From an uncultured Prevotella sp. (GTDB lineage: Bacteria > Bacteroidota > Bacteroidia > Bacteroidales > Bacteroidaceae): 54,250 bases of DNA. The notes below the pieces were generated by a model that searched no databases, was not told the DNA's origin, and saw only the letters and a list, made by a program, of their open reading frames with translations. A program made the translations under genes and the position numbers. Location: the NCBI GenBank assembly GCA_900315635.1, contig OMZV01000016.1:1-54250 (forward strand), read 5' to 3'. The number at the start of each line of letters is the position of its first letter. The first letter of the stretch is position 1. This document shows positions 12,293 to 51,744 of the stretch, piece after piece.

Positions 12293-12602
12293 TCAAATCT
12301 TTCAACTTTATTATTTAATCAACAAATCCAACAAATAAAAAATCTTCGATTTTTTCGTGAAAGATTTGTTGTTTAATAGTTTGACAGAAGTGCTGATAAA
12401 CGGTAAAGCGCATAAGTATAAAACTTTTTTACCCGGAAAGCCATTTCTGTAAATAGCTGATAATCAAATGGGTTGTAAAAGATGCCCTTTTACATTCTAA
12501 TTGGGTATCTTTTAGAGTCTAATTGGGTATCTTTTACAAACTGAAAGATACCCAATTAGAATGCGTTTAGCCGTTACTTAGGAAGCGGTCGATATTCTGT
12601 CA
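12293..12602. other. 310-base intergenic region with repeat element
   Basis: No gene is visible between the LOG-family gene and dprA (converging). Apart from the repeat at 12464-12566 it holds A+T-rich sequence with a short AATCTTTC/GAAAGATT inverted repeat around 12294-12366 that could serve as a weak terminator. Confidence 0.5.
12464..12566. repeat. GGTATCTTTT-type tandem/inverted repeat, copy A
   Basis: Three head-to-tail units of about 22-23 bases (core TCTAATTGGGTATCTTTTA) followed by one inverted unit (AAAGATACCCAATTAGAATG), so the end folds into a long hairpin. The same plan occurs at 23042-23147, and diverged relatives lie at 34069-34200 and 51612-51744. Confidence 0.85.
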
Positions 12603-13809: not shown

Positions 13810-14310
13810 CTACTTGATGTACGGGGCGAAGGCGGCATCATACTCGGGGCTTACACCCAGCCGTCCGTTGATAAGCGTCACGAGTTCAGCAGTGCAGTGG
13901 AAGCTGAGCCGTTCGTCGGATGCACGGAAGAGGTCGTGGGTGAAGACATAGCGGATGCCTTCCTTACGGAGTTTCATGCGTGAGATTATCTCATCGTCAC
14001 AACGCAGTGGAGCCTTGAACTGCAGGTTCATTCGTGCCACAACGGCATCGATGCCTTTCTCGTGCAGCTGTGAAAAACTTACACCAATGCTCTTCAGGAA
14101 GCGGTGGCGCGTGTGTTCGGTATAGTGCAGGTAGTTGGCGTTGTTGACGATTCCCTCTATATCGCACTCATAGTCACGCACCTCCATACGGGTTTCGAAG
14201 ATGTAAGGAGAGGAGGAAGTCCCCGCCAAACCTCCCCCAAGGGGAGGCTTTTGATTACCTAAAAGTTTATTTGTTTCGCTGTCCATATTATTTTCTATAT
14301 TGTTGTCCAT
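13810..14310 (-). CDS. Hotdog-fold acyl-CoA thioesterase (4HBT/YbgC-like), N-terminus remodelled by a repeat element
   Basis: From Met14187 onward this is a standard 4HBT domain: VRDYECDIEGIVNNANYLHY carries the Asp-x-x-G-I-V-N-N-x-x-Y motif, followed by the long central helix HTRHRFLKSIGV. It should hydrolyse acyl-CoA or acyl-ACP thioesters in the cytoplasm; the substrate is unknown. The start is unresolved. Candidates are ATGs at 14466, 14310, 14286 and 14187. The last would drop the first strand (YIFETR). The 14310 and 14286 starts place a repeat arm (14219-14264) inside the coding sequence, encoding LLGNQKPPLGGGLAG. I chose 14310, and 14286 is equally possible. The 14466 start would overlap the DUF2851 gene. 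Homologues are expected to start only a few residues before YIFETR. Confidence 0.8.
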   Translation of the reverse strand: MDNNIENNMDSETNKLLGNQKPPLGGGLAGTSSSPYIFETRMEVRDYECDIEGIVNNANYLHYTEHTRHRFLKSIGVSFSQLHEKGIDAVVARMNLQFKAPLRCDDEIISRMKLRKEGIRYVFTHDLFRASDERLSFHCTAELVTLINGRLGVSPEYDAAFAPYIK

Positions 14311-14404
14311 TGTTATAACGTTAAGTTTTTCCTTGGTGATTAAACATCCTCCCCTTGGGGGAGGCTCGGTGGGGATATTAACCTTGGGGGAGACTTGGTG
14401 GGGA
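14219..14404. repeat. REPIN-like inverted pair of G+C-rich arms (copy 1) plus a half-arm
   Basis: Left arm 14219-14264 (CCCCGCC...CCTCCCCCAAGGGGAGG...GATTACCTAAAAG) and right arm 14331-14375 are inverted copies; each contains its own small palindrome CCTCCCC(C)AAGGGGAGG. A further half-arm at 14382-14404 encodes the last residues of the DUF2851 protein and the adjoining TTA provides its stop codon. The sequence between the arms holds the candidate start codons of the thioesterase. Confidence 0.85.
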
Positions 14405-15694
14405 TTTTCGCAAATATTCATACCCAAACCTGCACCTGAGGCAGTCCTTTCTGTCACAATACTCATTCTTCAGCTGTATCAGAGCCTGCGAGTCGCCGGC
14501 ATTATCCACCGGCAAACCGACCTCACGCCATAGCCTTGTTATGTGGTTGTCCTCAGCCCGAAGCTCTTCAAGGAAGTCAAACGAGCGGTCGCACAACCGG
14601 TCGTCGCCCTTATGGCGTCCGTAGGCAAAGAGCATTGGCACGACGGTGTTTATCAGAAGCAGGTTCAGCGATGAAGCAGAAAGGTTCTTTTCATTCCTCG
14701 GTCCGGCATTGCCGAAGGTGTAATGGGTCTCCCAGTATTGCGTCACATGGGTTTTCATAAGCTCTCGCGCCTTCTTCAACGTGTCACATTCAGTCAAAGC
14801 GGCAAGGCTTGTCTTGTGGTTATAATAGAGATTCACAAGCTGACTGATTCTTATATGTGGGAAATTCTGCGGTCGAAGACGGAGAAACCGCCATAGTCCG
14901 GAGTCGATTGGATGAAGTGAGAATTTATGGGAAAGATAATGGTATTCGTTTTGCAGACGGGTGAAATACCCTTCTGACAGTGCATCTTTCCGGTAACGCT
15001 CAGGCACGGTATTGATGTCCAAGAGTCCTGCCTGACCCAGAAAGAAAGCCTCAACTTGGAAGATGTCATCACGATGGTGGGCTACATCATTCAATGGGAT
15101 GTTCTCTGCCCATGTCTCAAAAGCCTGACCGTTGATCCCGAAACCGTAATTGCGGGCAAGGGTTATGAAGTAAGCCTGCTCCCAAGAGCCGTTGAACCGC
15201 TTCGCACGCTCGGCTATTGCCTCGGTTTTCTGCTCAAGGCGCTCGGTCTGCAAAGCACTCATCCATGAGTGGACGGTCAGTCGTGAAAGGTTGGGAATAA
15301 TCTTATAACATGGCGGATAGCTGTCGGTCGTGAGAAGTTCCTTATAATGGTCGGCAACTTCCTTGGGAACAGCGAGCTGCATTTGTGGCGGTACAGACCC
15401 GTCGGCGGTATGTACCTCGGTGTCAATGACTCCTGCCACGTGGAGTATTACGTTGTCATAGTGATGGTCTTTGTCGTGACCATGAAGAAACCAGTCGCTC
15501 GACTTGTCGTGAATCTCGACATTGCCGACCCACAGCGTGCCCCCAATCTTCACCTTTGCGTTGAAGAAGTCGGGACCGGCATTGCGGTTGTGGAGACCCG
15601 GGTCGATGACTTCAACGGTCTGGTTGTCGGTGGTACGTAATTCAGTGAGCGGAAACATCTTGTGTTTCCAAACATAGTGCAACAGTTGTTCCAT
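14378..15694 (-). CDS. DUF2851 family protein
   Basis: A 438-residue DUF2851 protein. The N-terminal half has the family pattern LLHYVWKHKMFP and DPGLHNRNAGPDFFNAKVKI, with VGNVEIHDKSSDW. The function is unknown, but the HNxGPDFxxAxI and EIHxxxSDW blocks look like a metal- or nucleic-acid-handling active site (inference only). The C-terminal CDRKDCLRCRFGYEYL contains a cysteine cluster (CxxxxCxxC). The last nine residues (KSPPSLPQG) are coded by a partial repeat arm that also gives the stop, so the native end was probably replaced. It has a -7 box TAGTTTTG at 15709-15716 and is divergent from dapB. It is probably co-transcribed with the thioesterase. Confidence 0.85.
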   Translation of the reverse strand: MEQLLHYVWKHKMFPLTELRTTDNQTVEVIDPGLHNRNAGPDFFNAKVKIGGTLWVGNVEIHDKSSDWFLHGHDKDHHYDNVILHVAGVIDTEVHTADGSVPPQMQLAVPKEVADHYKELLTTDSYPPCYKIIPNLSRLTVHSWMSALQTERLEQKTEAIAERAKRFNGSWEQAYFITLARNYGFGINGQAFETWAENIPLNDVAHHRDDIFQVEAFFLGQAGLLDINTVPERYRKDALSEGYFTRLQNEYHYLSHKFSLHPIDSGLWRFLRLRPQNFPHIRISQLVNLYYNHKTSLAALTECDTLKKARELMKTHVTQYWETHYTFGNAGPRNEKNLSASSLNLLLINTVVPMLFAYGRHKGDDRLCDRSFDFLEELRAEDNHITRLWREVGLPVDNAGDSQALIQLKNEYCDRKDCLRCRFGYEYLRKSPPSLPQG

Positions 15695-15708
15695 AATAGA
15701 TTAATGTG

Positions 15709-15716
15709 CAAAACTA
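15709..15716 (-). promoter_or_regulatory. -7 promoter box for the DUF2851 gene
   Basis: TAGTTTTG on the minus strand, 15 bases before the ATG at 15694, matching TAnnTTTG. No clear -33 box. Confidence 0.45.
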
Positions 15717-15760
15717 CATAAAATTTCTGTAATACTTAAGTAAAACCGAGAAAAAAAAGT

Positions 15761-15768
15761 TACCTTTG
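15761..15768 (+). promoter_or_regulatory. -7 promoter box for dapB
   Basis: TACCTTTG followed by CATCG, 33 bases before the dapB ATG. Matches TAnnTTTG and is divergent from the DUF2851 promoter. Confidence 0.5.
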
Positions 15769-15801
15769 CATCGTTTTAATTCGAATTAAAAGACTTTTGA
15801 T

Positions 15802-16557
15802 ATGAAGATTGCTCTTATCGGCTACGGTAAGATGGGGCACATGATTGAGCAGATTGCCCTTAGCCGCGGCCACCAAATCGTTTGTAAAATTGATGTAAAC
15901 AACCAGCAAGACTTCGATTCTCCGGAGTTCGCCAGTGCTGATGTTGCAATAGAGTTTACCAATCCAACAGCTGCCTACGACAACTATCTCAAGGCTTTCA
16001 AGCACAATGTAAAGGTCGTCAGCGGCTCAACAGGATGGATGAAAGACCACAAGGCTGATGTCGAGGCTCTCACAAAGGACGGAAAGCAGACTCTCTTCTG
16101 GGCTAGCAACTTCTCCATCGGTGTCGCCATCTTCTCAGCTGTCAACCGCTATCTGGCTAAGATCATGAACCAGTTTCCACAGTATGACGTCGAACTTGAG
16201 GAGACTCACCACATACATAAGCTCGATGCTCCGTCTGGAACAGCCATTACTCTTGCCGAAGAGATTGTCAACGACATCGACCGCAAGACTTCCTGGAAGA
16301 AGGGAACAACCCGTTGGGACGACGGACATGTTGATGGAAGTGACGACCACAAGCCTGACGAGTTGCTCGTCAAGAGCATCCGCCACGAGGAAGTTCCTGG
16401 TATTCACACCATCCGCTATGACAGTGAAGCCGACGAGATAACCATTACTCACAATGCTCACTCTCGTAAGGGATTCGCCCTCGGTGCAGTTCTTGCCGCT
16501 GAATACACTCTTAATCATACCGGCTTGCTGACAACCAGCGATTTGTTTAAGTTCTAA
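15802..16557 (+). CDS. dapB: 4-hydroxy-tetrahydrodipicolinate reductase
   Basis: A 251-residue DapB of usual length. The N-terminal dinucleotide-binding GYGKMGHMIEQIAL is followed by the substrate domain with the conserved ETHHIHKLDAPSGTA motif, in which the His pair and Lys act in catalysis. The C-terminal half ends with ITITHNAHSRKGFALGA. It reduces the dihydrodipicolinate precursor with NAD(P)H in lysine and diaminopimelate synthesis, and so feeds cell-wall crosslinking. The ATG follows a short A-rich leader. It is first in a plus-strand run with lepB and a WbqC-family gene, an order seen in other Bacteroidetes as I recall. Confidence 0.96.
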   Translation: MKIALIGYGKMGHMIEQIALSRGHQIVCKIDVNNQQDFDSPEFASADVAIEFTNPTAAYDNYLKAFKHNVKVVSGSTGWMKDHKADVEALTKDGKQTLFWASNFSIGVAIFSAVNRYLAKIMNQFPQYDVELEETHHIHKLDAPSGTAITLAEEIVNDIDRKTSWKKGTTRWDDGHVDGSDDHKPDELLVKSIRHEEVPGIHTIRYDSEADEITITHNAHSRKGFALGAVLAAEYTLNHTGLLTTSDLFKF

Positions 16558-16561
16558 CATA

Positions 16562-16629
16562 AATTCAAAATGCAAAATTCTAATTTGAAGTAATCATAAT
16601 TTTGCATTTTGAATTTTGCATTTTGAATT
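16562..16629. repeat. A+T-rich perfect inverted repeat between dapB and lepB
   Basis: An 18-base arm AATTCAAAATGCAAAATT (16562-16579) is matched exactly by its inverse at 16598-16615, and a further TTTTGCATTTTGAATT follows at 16614-16629. This is a mini inverted-repeat element that also looks able to form a transcript hairpin. Confidence 0.8.
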
Positions 16630-16636
16630 AATAGAT

Positions 16637-18190
16637 ATGATCGACAAGGAAAAAGCTAAGCTGAACCCACGCAAGCAATGGCTGAAGTTCGGCATCGTTA
16701 TAATTATCTACGCCCTGTTCATTGCATGGGTTGCGCCACAGAGCATAACCGGATGGATACTCACCATCATTGGCGCACTATTCTTCTTTGATGTCTACAT
16801 AACGAAGAAAGTCCACTGGAACTGGTGGAAGGAAGGCTCACCCGTAACACGGACAGTGATGAGTTGGGTCGACGCCATCGTCTTCGCATTGGTGGCTGTA
16901 TACTTCATCAACCTGTTCTTGTTCCAGAACTTCGTCATTCCGTCGAGCTCTCTTGAGAAGAGTTTGCTCACCGGCGATTATCTTGCTGTCAGCAAGGTGA
17001 GCTACGGACCACGCATTCCGGAGACTCCGCTGACAATGCCCCTTACTCAGCACACGCTGCCAATCGTCAACTGCAAGAGCTATATCTCATGGCCGCACTG
17101 GGACTATCGCCGCATGAAAGGTCTCGGAAACGTTGAGCTCAATGACATCGTGGTGTTCAATTTCCCTACCGGCGACACCATCATGACTGCCGACGAGTAT
17201 CAGGCTCAGGATTACTATTCCATCGTTTACAACAATGGTACAGGGCTGATGGCTCAGCAGAACCCGAACATTGACCTGTCGAAGATGAACGCTCAGCAAC
17301 TGCGTGACTTCTACACCAAGGCATACGCTCTCGGACGCCAGTATGTCCTCGACCATCCTCAGGTATTCGGAACACTGGACACTCGCCCAGTTGACCGTGA
17401 GGAGAACTACGTTAAGCGTTGCGTCGGACTGCCGGGACAGACTCTACAAATCAAGGATCACATCATTTACCTTAACGGAAAGGCAAACAAAGAGCCTGAC
17501 AACGTCCAGTATACTTACTTCGTGAAGTTCGCAAACGGAATAAGCGCTACCGACCTTATAGGCAATAAGTATGACGCTCTGCGCAAGGAACTGGGAATAA
17601 GTGAGGAAGACGTTCAGTCGCTCGGACTGCTCCACGGCTACAATGTTGAGAACGGAAGCGTGCTCAATCAGTCGGTTCTAGACAAATATGACGGCTATAT
17701 GCCAATGACAAAGAACACTGCCGCCCAAATGCTTAAGCGCCATATATTCACATCCGAGAAGATAGTAACAGATAAAGACTTGTTTACCGGACCTGTCTAT
17801 CCACTGAACGGATATTACGGATGGACCCGCGACAACTACGGTCCTATCTGGATTCCAAAGCACGGGCAGTCGATTAAACTGACGCTGGAGAACCTGCCGG
17901 TATATGAACGTTGCATAACCGCATACGAAGGCAATACTCTTCAGGTCAAGGGCAACCACATATACATCAATGGCAAGCTCACCGACAAGTACACATTCAA
18001 GATGGACTATTACTGGATGATGGGTGACAACCGCCACAACTCGCTCGATTCCCGTTACTGGGGCTTCGTTCCTGAGGACCACATCGTCGGCAAGCCACTG
18101 TTCATCTGGTGGAGTTCCGACCCTGACCGCCATGGATTCAGCGGCATCAGATGGAATCGCCTGTTCAAGTGGGTAGGCGACATTAAATGA
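16637..18190 (+). CDS. lepB: Signal peptidase I (Bacteroidetes-type, extended)
   Basis: A 517-residue S26 protease. An N-terminal hydrophobic region (two or three helices by about residue 110) is followed by the nucleophile motif FVIPSSSLEKSLLTGDYL. The general-base lysine motif is YVKRCVGLPGQ, and the C-terminal box MMGDNRHNSLDSRYWGFVP closes the active site. It is about twice the length of Escherichia coli-type catalytic domains because of a long insertion between the lysine motif and the GDN box, as usual in this phylum. It cleaves signal peptides of exported proteins. I prefer the ATG at 16637 over 16616, because the upstream codons lie in the A+T-rich inverted repeat. A repeat element begins six bases after the stop. 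Confidence 0.94.
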   Translation: MIDKEKAKLNPRKQWLKFGIVIIIYALFIAWVAPQSITGWILTIIGALFFFDVYITKKVHWNWWKEGSPVTRTVMSWVDAIVFALVAVYFINLFLFQNFVIPSSSLEKSLLTGDYLAVSKVSYGPRIPETPLTMPLTQHTLPIVNCKSYISWPHWDYRRMKGLGNVELNDIVVFNFPTGDTIMTADEYQAQDYYSIVYNNGTGLMAQQNPNIDLSKMNAQQLRDFYTKAYALGRQYVLDHPQVFGTLDTRPVDREENYVKRCVGLPGQTLQIKDHIIYLNGKANKEPDNVQYTYFVKFANGISATDLIGNKYDALRKELGISEEDVQSLGLLHGYNVENGSVLNQSVLDKYDGYMPMTKNTAAQMLKRHIFTSEKIVTDKDLFTGPVYPLNGYYGWTRDNYGPIWIPKHGQSIKLTLENLPVYERCITAYEGNTLQVKGNHIYINGKLTDKYTFKMDYYWMMGDNRHNSLDSRYWGFVPEDHIVGKPLFIWWSSDPDRHGFSGIRWNRLFKWVGDIK

Positions 18191-18195
18191 TTTTT

Positions 18196-18334
18196 CCCAC
18201 CAAGCCTCCCCCAAGGGGAGGATATTTAATTACCTAATTGAATATTAAAGCAAAGCAAAGTAAATATGAATGAGCAGGAAACTCATACTGGCTTAGGTAA
18301 TCAAACGCCCTCCCCTTGTGGGAGGCTTGATGAG
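18196..18334. repeat. REPIN-like inverted pair of G+C-rich arms (copy 2)
   Basis: Left arm 18196-18236 (CCCACCAAGCCTCCCCCAAG...TACCTAA) and inverted right arm 18292-18334 (TTAGGTAATCAAACGCCC...). It starts six bases after the lepB stop. The wbqC start codon lies between the arms and the right arm is translated. Confidence 0.87.
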
Positions 18335-18994
18335 AATATAGCTTTAGTTACCACCACATACTTCGGTCCAATCCAGTGGTATCAGAAGCTGAACCGGTAC
18401 AAGACATGCTATATTGAGCGCTATGACAACTTTGTCAAGCAGACCTACCGCAACCGCTGTGTCATAGCAACAGCCAACGGAACACAGAAGCTTACCATTC
18501 CGGTAGAGGGCACCGATGAAAAGGGAGGGAAGATCCTAGACCGTGATATTCGCATCAGTGACCACGGAAACTGGCGCCACCTTCACTGGAACGCCCTCTC
18601 GTCAGCCTACGGCGAAAGCCCATTCTTCGAATTCTATGCCGACGACCTTCGACCATTCTTCGAACGCCGTTGGACTTATCTATATGACTTCAACTGGGAA
18701 ATAACGCTGAAGATTTGTGAACTTCTCGACATTCAGCCCGACATTCATCCCACAACCAACTATCTTCCGGAGGAAAAGTCCGATGAATCCGGCAATCTTT
18801 CCTTCCTCAGAAGCGATGGAACCGCCGATTTCCGCTCCGCCATTCGTCCGAAGCGCCCTCTCCCCGACCCTTCCTTCGAGCCTCAACCCTACTATCAAGT
18901 ATTCCGCCAAAAGAAAGAGCAAGCCTTTCTGCCGAACCTCAGCATACTCGACCTGCTCTTCAATGAGGGCAACGAGGCAGTATTGTACCTATAA
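18266..18994 (+). CDS. WbqC-like family protein with repeat-encoded N-terminus
   Basis: A 242-residue WbqC-family protein (DUF). The core begins at ALVTTTYFGPIQWYQKL and continues with VKQTYRNRCVIATANGTQKL, GNWRHLHWNALSSAYGESPF and the C-terminal NLSILDLLFNEG, all typical. Family members are often annotated as having a glycan-biosynthesis role, but no activity is firmly known to me. There is no possible start codon within or after the core's first strand. The only available ATG is 18266, so translation must pass through the repeat arm, adding the peptide GLGNQTPSPCGRLDE before the family domain. It is third in the dapB-lepB-wbqC run. Confidence 0.85.
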   Translation: MNEQETHTGLGNQTPSPCGRLDENIALVTTTYFGPIQWYQKLNRYKTCYIERYDNFVKQTYRNRCVIATANGTQKLTIPVEGTDEKGGKILDRDIRISDHGNWRHLHWNALSSAYGESPFFEFYADDLRPFFERRWTYLYDFNWEITLKICELLDIQPDIHPTTNYLPEEKSDESGNLSFLRSDGTADFRSAIRPKRPLPDPSFEPQPYYQVFRQKKEQAFLPNLSILDLLFNEGNEAVLYL

Positions 18995-23041: not shown

Positions 23042-23147
23042 CAACTGAGTTGTAAAACGGTATCTTTTGGCTTCTAATTCGGTATCTTTTGGCTCGTAAT
23101 CGGGTATCTTTTACGAGCCAAAAGATATCCAATTAAAAACGCATTGA
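23042..23147. repeat. GGTATCTTTT-type tandem/inverted repeat, copy B
   Basis: Two exact-length 22-base units (23059-23080 and 23081-23102, each opening GGTATCTTTTGGC) and a third partial unit, followed by an inverted copy (CCAAAAGATATCCAATTA, 23118-23135). Same architecture as 12464-12566. Confidence 0.88.
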
Positions 23148-26737: not shown

Positions 26738-26855
26738 GTCCCCACCAAGCCTCCCCCAAGGGGAGGATGTCTGATTACCTAAGATTTGCTGAAAGCTACA
26801 TTATAGTCTTTTAGGTAACTGAACATCCTCCCCTTGGGGAAGGCTTGGTGGGGAC
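26738..26855. repeat. REPIN-like inverted pair of G+C-rich arms (copy 3)
   Basis: The best-preserved copy. Left arm 26738-26783 and right arm 26807-26855 begin and end with GTCCCCACCAAGCC and its inverse, with a 23-base spacer. It lies between converging genes, just after the CPBP protease stop, and could also act as a terminator. Confidence 0.9.
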
Positions 26856-27372: not shown

Positions 27373-29196
27373 TTACTTGGCTCCAGCGGCTTTAAGGGCA
27401 GCCCGGAGCACATCATTCTCGTCATTCCATATCTGATAGTACTCATTGAGCGACCAGAGGTCACGGGCTATGAGGGCCTTCAGCTGAGTCCGGAGCAACG
27501 GGAGAGTCGCGTCGAGTTCTGCTTTGTCCTTCGGCTCAACCTTCTTCGACTTGGCGTCGGCAATAATCGAGTCTGTAAGAACTGCAGGAACGGTATAGTT
27601 GCGCTTGAAGTCAGCAAATGACTTATACCTTTTCAGCAATGGCTTGCGCTCGTGGTCGACGTAAGTAAGCAGATGGTTGATGATGATATTCTTCGCAGCT
27701 AACTGCCGATGGAAGTGTGTTATATTCGTACTATCGAACGGAACGAATATGTCCGGCATGATACCACCGCCTCCATAGACCACACGATGAAGCCGACGGG
27801 TGTAGTACTTCTGGTTCTTGTCGAGGTGGATGGAATCGATTGACGTGAGCTCGCCGTGCTTCAGACGGTTCTCTATGTCACGGGCATAGTCGTCAGGATC
27901 ACCCTTCTTGTATGGCTTCTGTATGCAACGACCGGACGGAGTATAGTAGTGGGCAATGGTAATGCGCATCATACTGCCGTCAGGAAGGTCTACAGGACGC
28001 TGTACAAGTCCTTTGGCAAACGTCCGACGACCGACTATTGTAGCACGGTCGTAGTCCTGCAAAGCACCGGAAACTATCTCCGCAGCCGATGCCGTATACT
28101 CATTGACGAGAACATAGACCTTGATGTTGCGCAAGCGACCGTTTCCACGGGCTGTATAAACCTTCATAGGAGTGGCTCGCCCGTACATGTAAACGATGGT
28201 ATCGCCGGGTTCCAGGAACTCGTTTGCTATCTCCACAGCTGCTCCCATCAGTCCACCGCCATTGTCCTCAAGGTCGAGAACAAGCGTATTCATACCGTGA
28301 TGAAGCAGTGAGTCGACACCATCCATAAGCTCCTTATGGGTCTTTTCGCCGAAGCTTGAGACATGAACATAGCCTATTCCGGGCTTAATCATGTAAGCAG
28401 ACTCTACCGAATGAACTGGAATAACATCACGTTTTATGGTGAAATTCAGCCTCTCGGAAACTCCGGGACGGATTACTCCAAGGCGAACCTTCGAGCCTTT
28501 CTTGCCGCGAAGGAGCTTCACAATGTTGGCACGTGGCATCTTCACACCGGCAATAAGTGAGTCATCGACCCACACGATACGGTCGCCGGGACGGATTCCA
28601 GCCTTCTCCGACGGTCCGTTAAGTGTCGGCTGAATGACTACAAGGGTATCGCTAAGTATGTTGAACTGCACGCCAATGCCCTCAAAATCGCCTTCTAAGC
28701 TCTCGTGCATGGCTTTCGCTTCCTCCGGAGTGGAGTATGAAGAATGCGGATCAAGCCCCTTCAGCATGCCTCTAATGCCGTCCTCAACGAGTTTATTCTC
28801 ATCAACACTATCGACATAAGCACTGTTGATCATCATTTCGGCAAGCTGCAATTTCCTCAAAGGAGAGGTCCTGCCGGTATGAAAGGTGAGCTGTGCAGAA
28901 GCAGTTAAAGGTAAAAAGGTAAAAAGGTAAAAGAGTAAAATGAAAGGAACAAGCCTTCCAAACACCCTTTTAGGATCCACCCCGACCCTCCTTAAAAAGG
29001 AGGGAGATATAGTAGGATTCACCCCGACCCTCCTTAAAAAGGAGGGGGATATAGTAGGATCCACCCCATCCCTCCCTAAAAAGGAGGGGGATATAGTAGG
29101 ATCCACCCCGACCCTCCTTAAAAAGGAGGGGGATATAGTCACAATATTAAATATTGATGTTATAGAGAAGCCTTTGTGAGTGTTGCCAATAGCCAT
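27373..29196 (-). CDS. S41 family C-terminal processing peptidase with repeat-encoded N-terminus
   Basis: A Tsp/CtpA-type protease. The signal-peptide-like segment VFGRLVPFILLFYLFTFLPL (ending TASAQ) is followed by a linker with GIRGMLKGLDPHSSY, a PDZ domain (IQPTLNGPSEKAGIRPGDRI), the catalytic S41 domain (VLDLEDNGGGLMGAAVEIAN; catalytic Ser in NEYTASAAEIVSGAL and Lys in FAKGLVQ) and a C-terminal extension. It degrades or trims periplasmic proteins. The first 76 residues are odd. The ATG at 29196 places four in-frame copies of a 42-bp repeat before the signal peptide, each giving roughly TISPSFLRRVGVDP, so the signal peptide would be internal. A GTG at 28965 would start right at it (530 residues). 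The start is unresolved; the body of the gene is certain. Confidence 0.88.
   Translation of the reverse strand: MAIGNTHKGFSITSIFNIVTISPSFLRRVGVDPTISPSFLGRDGVDPTISPSFLRRVGVNPTISPSFLRRVGVDPKRVFGRLVPFILLFYLFTFLPLTASAQLTFHTGRTSPLRKLQLAEMMINSAYVDSVDENKLVEDGIRGMLKGLDPHSSYSTPEEAKAMHESLEGDFEGIGVQFNILSDTLVVIQPTLNGPSEKAGIRPGDRIVWVDDSLIAGVKMPRANIVKLLRGKKGSKVRLGVIRPGVSERLNFTIKRDVIPVHSVESAYMIKPGIGYVHVSSFGEKTHKELMDGVDSLLHHGMNTLVLDLEDNGGGLMGAAVEIANEFLEPGDTIVYMYGRATPMKVYTARGNGRLRNIKVYVLVNEYTASAAEIVSGALQDYDRATIVGRRTFAKGLVQRPVDLPDGSMMRITIAHYYTPSGRCIQKPYKKGDPDDYARDIENRLKHGELTSIDSIHLDKNQKYYTRRLHRVVYGGGGIMPDIFVPFDSTNITHFHRQLAAKNIIINHLLTYVDHERKPLLKRYKSFADFKRNYTVPAVLTDSIIADAKSKKVEPKDKAELDATLPLLRTQLKALIARDLWSLNEYYQIWNDENDVLRAALKAAGAK
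28972..29139. repeat. Four tandem 42-bp repeats at the 5' end of the S41 protease gene
   Basis: Units 28972-29013, 29014-29055, 29056-29097 and 29098-29139, nearly identical, each with the palindrome CCTCCTTAAAAAGGAGG (or near). The length is a multiple of three and no stop occurs in the S41 frame. Confidence 0.92.
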
Positions 29197-31385: not shown

Positions 31386-31428
31386 GTTGTGTTAGAAAAT
31401 TTATTGGAGGGGTGAGGAAGGGGGTGAT

Positions 31429-31586
31429 AGGCAGAGTGGGCTTATTAGGCATAATAGGCTCATTAGGCAGAGTGGGCTTATTAGGCATAGTAGGCTTATT
31501 AGGCATAATAGGCTCATTAGGCATAGTAGGCTTATTAGGCATAATAGGCATAATAGGCATAATGGGCATAGTAGGCTTAATAGGCA
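31429..31586. repeat. 18-bp / 9-bp minisatellite upstream of parE
   Basis: About six head-to-tail 18-base units of the form TAGGCATAATAGGCTCAT or TAGGCAGAGTGGGCTTAT, then several 9-base units ATAATAGGC. It fills almost the whole 218-base gap between the GNAT-like gene and parE. Both strands stay open in frame because the unit has no stop codon. Confidence 0.9.
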
Positions 31587-31603
31587 AAGCTAAAAAGCTG
31601 GAC

Positions 31604-32755
31604 CTACAGCTTAATAGCCTTCTTGTAGCAGCGGCGGCGCTTGTGGTTCACCGGGTTGAGAGCCCCCCACTGGCGCTGAACACCCTCGTTGCTTTCCATC
31701 TCGACCTGGCTTTCACCCCATTTGAAGCCATAGTCGATGTAGCGGGGAATGAGGTCGGCGAAGAGAAGAGCGTTGGCACCCTTGGAGCGATACTCCGGGA
31801 GAATGCCAAGGAGCAGCAAGTCGACGCCCTCAGACTTATGGAACTTACCCGCACGGAGAATATGCCACCAGCCGAAAGGCAACAGCCGACCACGGTGGCA
31901 CTTCTGTGCCGCACGGCTCATCGACGGCATGGTGATGCCTATTCCAACGAGCTTGTTGTCGGCGCTGGCATCCTCGACACACGTCACGAGATTGAGGTCG
32001 AGAAGCGGAAGGTACTCCTTGGTGTACTGGTCGATCTGCTTAGGACTCAACTCCGAGAACCCGTAAAGATCCTTGTAAGTATCGTTGATAAGCTTGAAGA
32101 CCTTGTGACCATAGCCCTCACGGATATCCTTCGTCGTTATCTTGCGGATGTGGAGGTTGTAGCGCTTCTCTATCATTGCCGCAATCTTCGAGTACTTCTC
32201 AGGCACTTTCTCCGGCACCTGCATGTAATACTCAACATAGTCGGCGTCCTTCTCCCATCCACCTAGCTGTTCGATGTGGCGCGGATAATAGTCATAGTTG
32301 TATATCGTCGGCATAGTTCCGAGCTTGTCGAAGCCCCAGATGAGCATTCCCTCCGGGTCCATATCGGTGAAACCGAGCGGTCCGACAACCTCAGTCATAC
32401 CCTTCCTGCGGCCATAATCCTCGACGGCATTGAGCAGCGCACGGCTGACCTCAATATCATCGATGAAGTCAATCCAGCCGAAACGGACACTCTTACGGTT
32501 CCACTTGTTGTTAGCCTTATGGTTGATGATAGCCGCAACACGTCCTACCACCTTGCCATTCTCGTCGAGGGCGAGGTAATACTCAGCCTCACAGAACTCA
32601 AAGGCAGCATTCTTCTTCGGCGAGAGGGTGTTCTTCTCGTCCATGTAGAGATTCGGGACATCGTAAGGGTTACCCTTGTAAAGGTCGTAGTGGAAATCGA
32701 TGAACGCTCGAAGCTGTTTCTTCGTCTCCACCTTCTGTATCGTAATTGATGACAT
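31604..32755 (-). CDS. GNAT-like N-acetyltransferase family protein
   Basis: A 383-residue cytoplasmic protein. The N-terminal GNAT-like fold has YLALDENGKVVGRVAAIINH, FGWIDFIDDIEVSRALLNAV and VVGPLGFTDMDPEGMLIWGF, which look like an acyl-CoA-binding core. A second region (about 200-383) includes LLLLGILPEYRSKGANALLF, a motif-A-like R/Q-x-x-G-x-A segment. The substrate is unknown. I start at 32755 (MSSITIQKV) because the promoter box TAAATTTG (32790-32797, minus strand) sits directly upstream of the other ATG at 32788, leaving it in the untranscribed or boundary region. It is upstream of parE on the same strand. Confidence 0.72.
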   Translation of the reverse strand: MSSITIQKVETKKQLRAFIDFHYDLYKGNPYDVPNLYMDEKNTLSPKKNAAFEFCEAEYYLALDENGKVVGRVAAIINHKANNKWNRKSVRFGWIDFIDDIEVSRALLNAVEDYGRRKGMTEVVGPLGFTDMDPEGMLIWGFDKLGTMPTIYNYDYYPRHIEQLGGWEKDADYVEYYMQVPEKVPEKYSKIAAMIEKRYNLHIRKITTKDIREGYGHKVFKLINDTYKDLYGFSELSPKQIDQYTKEYLPLLDLNLVTCVEDASADNKLVGIGITMPSMSRAAQKCHRGRLLPFGWWHILRAGKFHKSEGVDLLLLGILPEYRSKGANALLFADLIPRYIDYGFKWGESQVEMESNEGVQRQWGALNPVNHKRRRCYKKAIKL

Positions 32756-43681: not shown

Positions 43682-43724
43682 CGGTAATCAGACATCCCCT
43701 CCATTCGGAGGGGCTTGGGGAGGC
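43682..43724. repeat. Lone G+C-rich arm of the REPIN-like family, diverged
   Basis: GGTAATCAGACATCCCCTCC followed by ATTCGGAGGGGCTTGGGGAGG: the same GGTAATCA...CCTCC...GGAGG layout as the paired arms, in the frdA-frdB gap. Less conserved than the others. Confidence 0.7.
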
Positions 43725-48636: not shown

Positions 48637-48648
48637 GACTATAGAATT

Positions 48649-48692
48649 CCCACCAAGCCTCCCCCAAGGGGAGGATGTTTAATCACCTAAGA
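48649..48692. repeat. Lone G+C-rich REPIN-like arm after mnmG
   Basis: CCCACCAAGCCTCCCCCAAG then GGGAGGATGTTTAATCACCT: nearly the same as the left arms at 18196 and 26738, starting 12 bases after the mnmG stop and with no opposing arm nearby. Confidence 0.88.
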
Positions 48693-51575: not shown

Positions 51576-51609
51576 AGGACATCTATTGAAATACAGTAGA
51601 TGTCCTTTT
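51576..51609 (+). terminator. Terminator after uvrC
   Basis: AGGACATCTA / TAGATGTCCT stem with 11-base loop followed by TTTTG, 12 bases past the uvrC stop. Confidence 0.8.
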
Positions 51610-51611
51610 GC

Positions 51612-51744
51612 TTTGTAAAACATAATCTTTTAGAGAGAAAAATAAATTATTTTTCTTTCATTTTAAATTTATTTTTTTTAGTTTTTAATTTATTTTTTAT
51701 CGTCAAAGATGCCCAATTACAAGACCAAAGGGTATCTATTGGCT
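51612..51744. repeat. Repeat related to the GGTATCTTTT element, A+T-rich version (copy D)
   Basis: Begins TTTGTAAAACATAATCTTTT, has the same A/T-rich interior as copy C, and ends with CAAAGATGCCCAATTAC and GGGTATCTATTGGCTTTT. The most diverged of the four. Confidence 0.55.

Follow-up and report, generated by a model that had tools for sequence, protein, structure and literature searches.

We analysed a stretch of 54,250 nucleotides from an uncultured Prevotella sp. (GenBank assembly GCA_900315635.1, contig OMZV01000016.1), here called the window, which carries several copies of a short palindromic repeat. Two of these, elements A and B, are situated at the 5' ends of unrelated genes, and Pfam names the genes at the elements as a 4HBT thioesterase, lepB and wbqC (Table 1). 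The repeat lies across gene starts, is absent from the relatives in the genes that were compared, can be read through in an open frame and has an ATG at a fixed position before the arm. In this genome and in a sister species, copies within ordinary genes appear to be translated and often to supply the start codon together with about two dozen N-terminal residues, which suggests that junk-like repeats have been built into working proteins.

The repeat at the thioesterase, DUF2851 and wbqC genes

The 17-nt hairpin of the arm has 12 strand-matches at seven places in the window with at most three mismatches, compared with 0.06 expected, and the elements end in terminal inverted repeats, the 44-nt arms. 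Both elements are located where a sequence-only reading of this DNA had placed them, and the arm peptides read at the two N-termini, LLGNQKPPLGGG and GLGNQTPSPCGR, are as it had given them. The same reading stressed that the two arms are translated in the same frame. This is true for the inner LGNQ part but not for the hairpins: the stretch between the GGT and the hairpin is 12 nt long in one arm and 13 nt in the other, and this 1-nt difference puts the hairpins into different frames. Furthermore, the shared frame of the inner arm is not evidence, because TTAGGTAATCAAA, when read outward from the loop, has a single open frame, the other two giving TAG and TAA. The coincidence of frame was therefore dropped as an argument, since the sole open frame of the inner arm forces the identity.

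The likeliest start of the thioesterase is the ATG at 14286 (MDSETNKLLGNQ), rather than the longest open reading frame (ORF) at 14466, and the geometry of this start recurs in ten other genes. The arm was said to lie between the usable start codons and the conserved domain, and its position is indeed as described, but a TTG inside the arm and an ATG inside the domain (MEVRDYECD) are also present. For wbqC, the claim that no start codon separates the arm from the domain was borne out for ATG, GTG and TTG, the three codons considered, downstream of the ATG at 18266. In the AlphaFold model of WbqC, the tag is a low-confidence coil, with predicted local distance difference test (pLDDT) values of 51 for the first block of ten residues and 44 for the second, and the first predicted strand is at residue 25. 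The tag peptides predicted from the sequence include MNEQETHTGLGNQ, MNEQETHTGLGNQTPSPCGR in WbqC and MEDNNKQNNLSNQTSSTWGR in SufS.

The half-arm next to element A was correctly read as coding for the KSPPSLPQG-stop end of the DUF2851 protein. When read inward, the arm has one frame, which ends with SPPSLPQGEDV-stop, and such C-terminal tails end six long ORFs with 178-680 residues before the arm, including DUF2851.

Table 1. Repeat elements and associated genes in the window
Feature	Position	Strand	Description
Element A	14220..14375	.	Two inverted arms, 100 nt between the 27-nt arm cores; hairpins 14231-14247 and 14348-14364; inside the 5' end of the thioesterase (4HBT) gene; same place in sister species G422 without element
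Extra half-arm	14377..14403	+	Adjoins element A; minus-strand reading gives most of the DUF2851 end
Element B	18194..18335	.	Between lepB and wbqC, right arm within wbqC; hairpins 18205-18221 and 18309-18325
Third copy	26740..26853	.	Between ORFs; 87-nt spacing (commonest)
Fourth copy	48648..48690	.	Single arm, between ORFs
4HBT thioesterase gene	13810..14286	-	From the proposed start; PF03061/PF13279
Likely thioesterase start codon	14284..14286	-	Within the loop (MDSETNKLLGNQKPPLGGGLAG); 9 codons before GGT, 39 nt before the hairpin
DUF2851 gene	14378..15694	-	PF11013; last nine residues (KSPPSLPQG) from the half-arm
wbqC gene	18266..18994	+	Residues 1-25 repeat-coded; PF08889 match from residue 32
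wbqC start ATG	18266..18268	+	In the loop (MNEQETHTGLGNQTPSPCGRLDENI); sole ATG/GTG/TTG before the domain

In-frame copies and start codons across the genome

The Prevotella genome to which the window belongs (G000; 2.75 Mb, 95.9% complete) contains 85 matches to the 27-nt arm with at most three mismatches, as compared with none for a reversed control. Reading around these matches with up to seven mismatches gave 101 arms, which form 32 facing pairs and 37 singles. The arms of a pair are spaced 84-167 nt apart, most commonly 87 nt (7 of the 32), and the base outside the arm core is a T on the left side in all 32 pairs and an A on the right side in 31 of them. Twenty of the 101 arms were judged to be in frame through a credible ORF that continues for at least 60 codons, after further ORFs had been dropped by eye because they were antisense, unsupported or had a native ATG after the arm; the places of the remaining arms were not gene-called. 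The 20 do not include C29:31196, a probable lipoprotein whose arm is degenerate (seven mismatches). The Pfam cut-off was exceeded by 18 of the 20 proteins, another had only a match below the cut-off, and one had no family.

The in-frame cases comprise 11 plain N-termini, four N-termini of exported proteins and five internal arms. The plain N-termini are those of DUF4954, 4HBT, WbqC, a HAD phosphatase (an inorganic diphosphatase according to NCBIfam), SDR, AroK, a NUDIX hydrolase, ProA, SufS, the unnamed protein C55:5061 and an ABC-2 permease. The exported proteins, which were set apart by eye, are Omp28, a Big_5 lipoprotein in which the arm is read in another frame, GH106 and a GH2 beta-galactosidase, and their arms lie before, within or after the apparent signal peptide. 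Internal arms are found in AguB, RsgA, a GT2/DUF4922 protein, a glycosyltransferase and an LPG_synthase_TM protein. The claim that arms code for protein ends in unrelated genes thus holds across the genome rather than for two genes, and the 20 ORFs show the in-frame insertion into unrelated genes that characterizes coding palindromes of the kind known as Rickettsia palindromic elements (RPEs).

In all 11 plain cases, the [GA]GTAATC anchor is preceded by an in-frame ATG at a distance of exactly 9 or 10 codons, 39-43 nt ahead of the hairpin, so that the earlier suggestion of start codons within the loop of the element can be stated as a fixed distance from the arm. Such an open ATG is present in 1 of 86 other arms that have the anchor and enough upstream sequence, and in 3 of 77 non-coding arms under a looser count in which the open-frame rule was dropped. 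Of the shuffled loops with at least one open ATG, 11.5% had one at that position. Other in-frame ATGs occur in four of the 11 cases and are scattered. The linker, represented by the seven codons before the L codon, is rich in A and consists to 73% of N, D, E, S, T and Q, as compared with 29% in 77 other arms and 33% in 44 stop-free arms, and none of 20000 permutations against the stop-free arms gave a value as high.

No ATG, GTG or TTG is located between the loop ATG and the domain in WbqC, HAD, SDR, NUDIX and SufS. The sole alternatives in DUF4954, 4HBT, ProA and C55:5061 are TTG or GTG codons within the arm, and in AroK an ATG at residue 8, still upstream of the arm, is present in addition to TTG/GTG.

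The internal arms can be compared with solved structures. The alignment of AguB to 6mg6 runs to residue 250 and resumes at residue 290, where the 6mg6 chain runs from 229 to 239. In RsgA, residues 161-198 represent the whole element read through, while 1u0l has a single residue at this site (156 to 158) and five relatives have a short loop. The AlphaFold model of RsgA shows the insert as a low-confidence coil (pLDDT about 25-36), and with a mean pLDDT of 53.7 the model is too weak for use beyond this. Two arms separated by about 800 nt (C21:174295 and 175093) were considered as the ends of an autonomous element, and the idea was rejected because the intervening stretch is the aguB ORF; a similarly wide pair is located at C15:62266/63062. 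A unit related to the AT-rich palindrome upstream of lepB described below, CAAAATTCAAAATTATGATTAC, has 17 matches with at most two mismatches in the sequence sampled around arms in the same genome. It is read as IQNSKFKIQNYDY-like peptides in four of the proteins with internal arms, and a shorter form occurs in SufS.

Relatives and other genomes

The sister genome G422 (uncultured Prevotella hRUG905) is syntenic with the window stretch at 71-81% identity. Its thioesterase begins with MEKYIFETRMEV at a native start, and its DUF2851 orthologue ends with YEYLKGRKGAG, neither of which contains the arm. WbqC was matched in 56 of 60 genomes, the window's own genome included. Of 29 wbqC loci fetched from relatives, 21 have an ATG 5-8 codons before TTYFGP, six have no in-frame upstream ATG, one has a different extension and one lacks the motif. 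The arm was found in none of the 28 loci with the gene motif, and an alignment of 20 sequences likewise shows no such arm in relatives. Among the 29 thioesterase loci fetched, 18 were read, and none of these contains the arm; 17 have an ATG 9-14 codons before VRDYECD and one is extended without an arm. The comparison of orthologues that the sequence-only reading had proposed hence leaves its claim standing for both genes. The arm is absent from the relatives examined in WbqC, 4HBT and RsgA, as expected of recent, lineage-specific insertions, and one insert, in the Big_5 lipoprotein, is common to G000 and G422.

Of the arms in G422, 45 were read (at 30 of 82 matches and five older loci), and these include five credible in-frame N-terminal cases. 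In two, the GGT is preceded by an ATG at a distance of exactly 27 nt, and one of these, a PatB-like protein, retains a further ATG beyond the arm. Another two look like exported proteins, and the fifth is the shared Big_5 lipoprotein. The wbqC gene of G422 carries a different repeat, CATCCCCTCCATTCGGAGGGGCTTGGRG, read as METEVNNETSNNTNPHPLHSEGLGAA. This second repeat has 30 matches in G422, 10 in G000 and none in the control, and it begins the apparent CoaD and TrxB proteins in G422 (L273 and L281; named by eye). At a glycosyltransferase site compared between the two genomes, the second repeat is found in G422 and the first repeat in G000. A copy of the second repeat (CATCCCCTCCATTCGGAGGGGCTTGGGG) is also located between two minus-strand ORFs at 43693-43720 in the window.

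Beyond the sister species, the N-terminus of hemW is formed from the same kind of arm in two Flavobacterium metagenome-assembled genomes (MAGs) and one Bacteroidetes MAG (L101, L121 and L129). At these loci, the ATG is 39 nt before the hairpin, the linker has diverged without indels, and a TTG in the arm is a possible start. A rumen Prevotella MAG has three in-frame matches (L126, L141 and L167), which may be sense or antisense. In a sample of the genus Prevotella, 50 of 398 genomes contain at least one arm with at most two mismatches, mostly in small numbers.

The window also contains other repeats. An AT-rich palindrome of AATTCAAAATGCAAAATT units is located just upstream of lepB (16563-16624). 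Another palindrome (CCCTCCTTAAAAAGGAGGG) is repeated head to tail at 28971-29138, in four copies of 42 nt, and 9-nt units (TTAGGCATA and variants) form a tandem array at 31391-31604. A further family with GGGTATCTTTT motifs is present at 12465-12561, 23042-23138 and 51598-51744, and the hairpin fold of the 23042-23138 copy is among the Rfam sub-threshold matches. Four Rfam matches below the gathering score, all to microRNA families at hairpins, were taken as chance.

Origin of the gene starts

We consider it likely that the elements are selfish palindromic repeats, similar to RPEs, of which the loop and one arm have become gene starts that are, to judge from the sequence, translated. The element would be a short selfish palindrome of about 110-195 nt. 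In the full copy, an AT-rich loop is flanked by a pair of inverted arms, both of which contain a strong hairpin. Copies and half-copies would have settled at the 5' ends of genes, some within proteins and some at gene ends; comparisons with relatives or solved structures show this for wbqC, 4HBT, rsgA and aguB. Where a copy came to lie over the old start, translation would begin at the loop ATG 39-43 nt before the right hairpin and proceed out through the sole open frame. Up to the end of the arm, the predicted product is a tag of about 22-23 residues (M-x7/8-L[GS]NQ-arm peptide), placed before the conserved domain. A need of the ribosome for an unstructured, A-rich stretch ahead of the hairpin is the probable reason for the conserved spacing. 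In the opposite direction, the arm yields the short C-terminal tails with their stop that are present in the sequence. Most likely, the tags are disordered tails that the proteins tolerate. The observation of the sequence-only reading is in this way confirmed, and its interpretation that mobile repeats reshape protein ends is supported.

Several results weigh against this interpretation. The four exported cases lack the fixed ATG, and the geometry thus holds for the 11 plain cases only; the ATG of the Big_5 lipoprotein is in another frame, 32 nt ahead of the anchor. Six KPPLGGG-type genes have a TTG or GTG in the arm that could in principle be used as a start, and the ABC permease has TTG/GTG as well as an ATG at residue 52, after the arm. 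The 11 loops may share descent, their right-anchored identity being 0.405 as compared with 0.363 in codon shuffles (p 0.002), and the cases would therefore not be fully independent. In P. veroralis and P. vespertina, 0 of 35 and 0 of 8 arms, about half of the arms of each genome, are in frame.

The arms might instead be hairpins in untranslated 5' leaders, in which case the genes would start farther downstream, from TTG/GTG or non-standard codons, and the open upstream frame would be accidental. A leader role is held in the account of PMC3733652 for most repetitive extragenic palindromic (REP) sequences at the 5' ends of ORFs in P. putida, C. koseri and S. maltophilia, and many N-terminal REPs of Pseudomonas and Stenotrophomonas are argued there not to be coding. 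Several arms are located just upstream of apparently intact native ATGs (for example those of groEL, purC, proC and efp; named by eye), and six of the 11 core genes have another start codon before the domain, which in four is a TTG or GTG in the arm only, the other two being AroK and the ABC permease. However, the remaining five offer no ATG, GTG or TTG between the loop ATG and the domain, and neither the fixed position of the ATG nor the lack of stops and the polar linker is expected of leader DNA. The arms of AguB and RsgA are in-frame inserts inside proteins and therefore cannot be leaders. The missing alternative starts and the fixed ATG thus argue that the N-terminal arms are coding here, and we regard the leader explanation as quite unlikely.

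The arms had been described as REPIN-like. REPINs (REP doublets forming hairpins) are moved by a REP-associated tyrosine transposase (RAYT), and the coding copies would then be by-products. The elements resemble REPs and REPINs in that short hairpin repeats form inverted doublets and number in the tens, with variants in other Prevotella genomes, and Y1_Tnp (PF01797) matches were obtained in 39 of 60 genomes searched, including six in a genome with seven arms (G037). However, no PF01797 match at E 0.001 was found in the arm-rich genomes G000, G003, G026, G030 and G422, each with at least 15 arms, where G000 is 95.9% complete, the completeness of G422 is not stated and 5 of 14 control genomes gave positives. 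In REPs and REPINs, a GTRG tetranucleotide is expected 5' of the hairpin. In contrast, when the hairpin is read outward the GTGG tag is found 3' of it, on the side away from the loop (CCCCACC-hairpin...hairpin-GGTGGGG). The name fails on these two features, and RAYT-driven REPINs were rejected on the same grounds as a very improbable origin; the coding use at gene starts is a further difference. REP termini that give stop codons and intragenic REPs have been described (PMC3733652), as have Y1 families with Bacteroidetes subclasses (PMC6006769).

The pattern most resembles RPEs and intragenic REPs. RPEs are described as palindromic repeats of about 150 bp that are inserted in frame within unrelated genes in a lineage-specific manner, some of them at the N-termini of expressed proteins (PMC10969869, PMC3733652). 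The elements share the in-frame insertion in unrelated genes but belong to another phylum, include many half-elements and have a loop from which the start codon comes, its distance to the arm being fixed; the likeness is drawn from the published descriptions. A minisatellite-bearing miniature inverted-repeat transposable element of P. gingivalis (PMC4596501), likewise compared by description only, is similar in being a short inverted-repeat element in the same phylum. No report of coding palindromes in Prevotella or Bacteroidota was found by title or the start of the abstract, in a search that left most subscription papers and all preprints outside.

It is also conceivable that the tag is a selected functional module, either a portable translation-initiation cassette or a protein tag, that was recruited repeatedly. 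The fixed geometry in all 11 plain genes, the convergent polar linkers and the presence of two repeat families at the same place in wbqC and a glycosyltransferase of the sister species are consistent with this. However, the tag sequences differ among genes with no common pathway apparent, the relatives examined manage without the tag, and tolerance together with a steric limit accounts for the geometry, which makes selection for such a function unlikely. A related possibility, which is likewise of low probability, is a portable start-codon module, in which the same genes would have their 5' ends taken over by different palindromic families independently, with the native starts being replaced. 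The cassette would have a fixed geometry of a start codon, 13-14 A-rich polar codons and an RNA hairpin, and it might set the translation of housekeeping enzymes.

Coding palindromes are best known from Rickettsia, and the repeats described here place about 20 such proteins in a single genome of a Bacteroidota lineage. Gene callers that choose the longest ORF may misplace the starts in such genomes. The fixed geometry of the start codon, and the presence of two repeat families at one and the same gene of sister species, would make it possible to date and test how selfish DNA becomes protein sequence.

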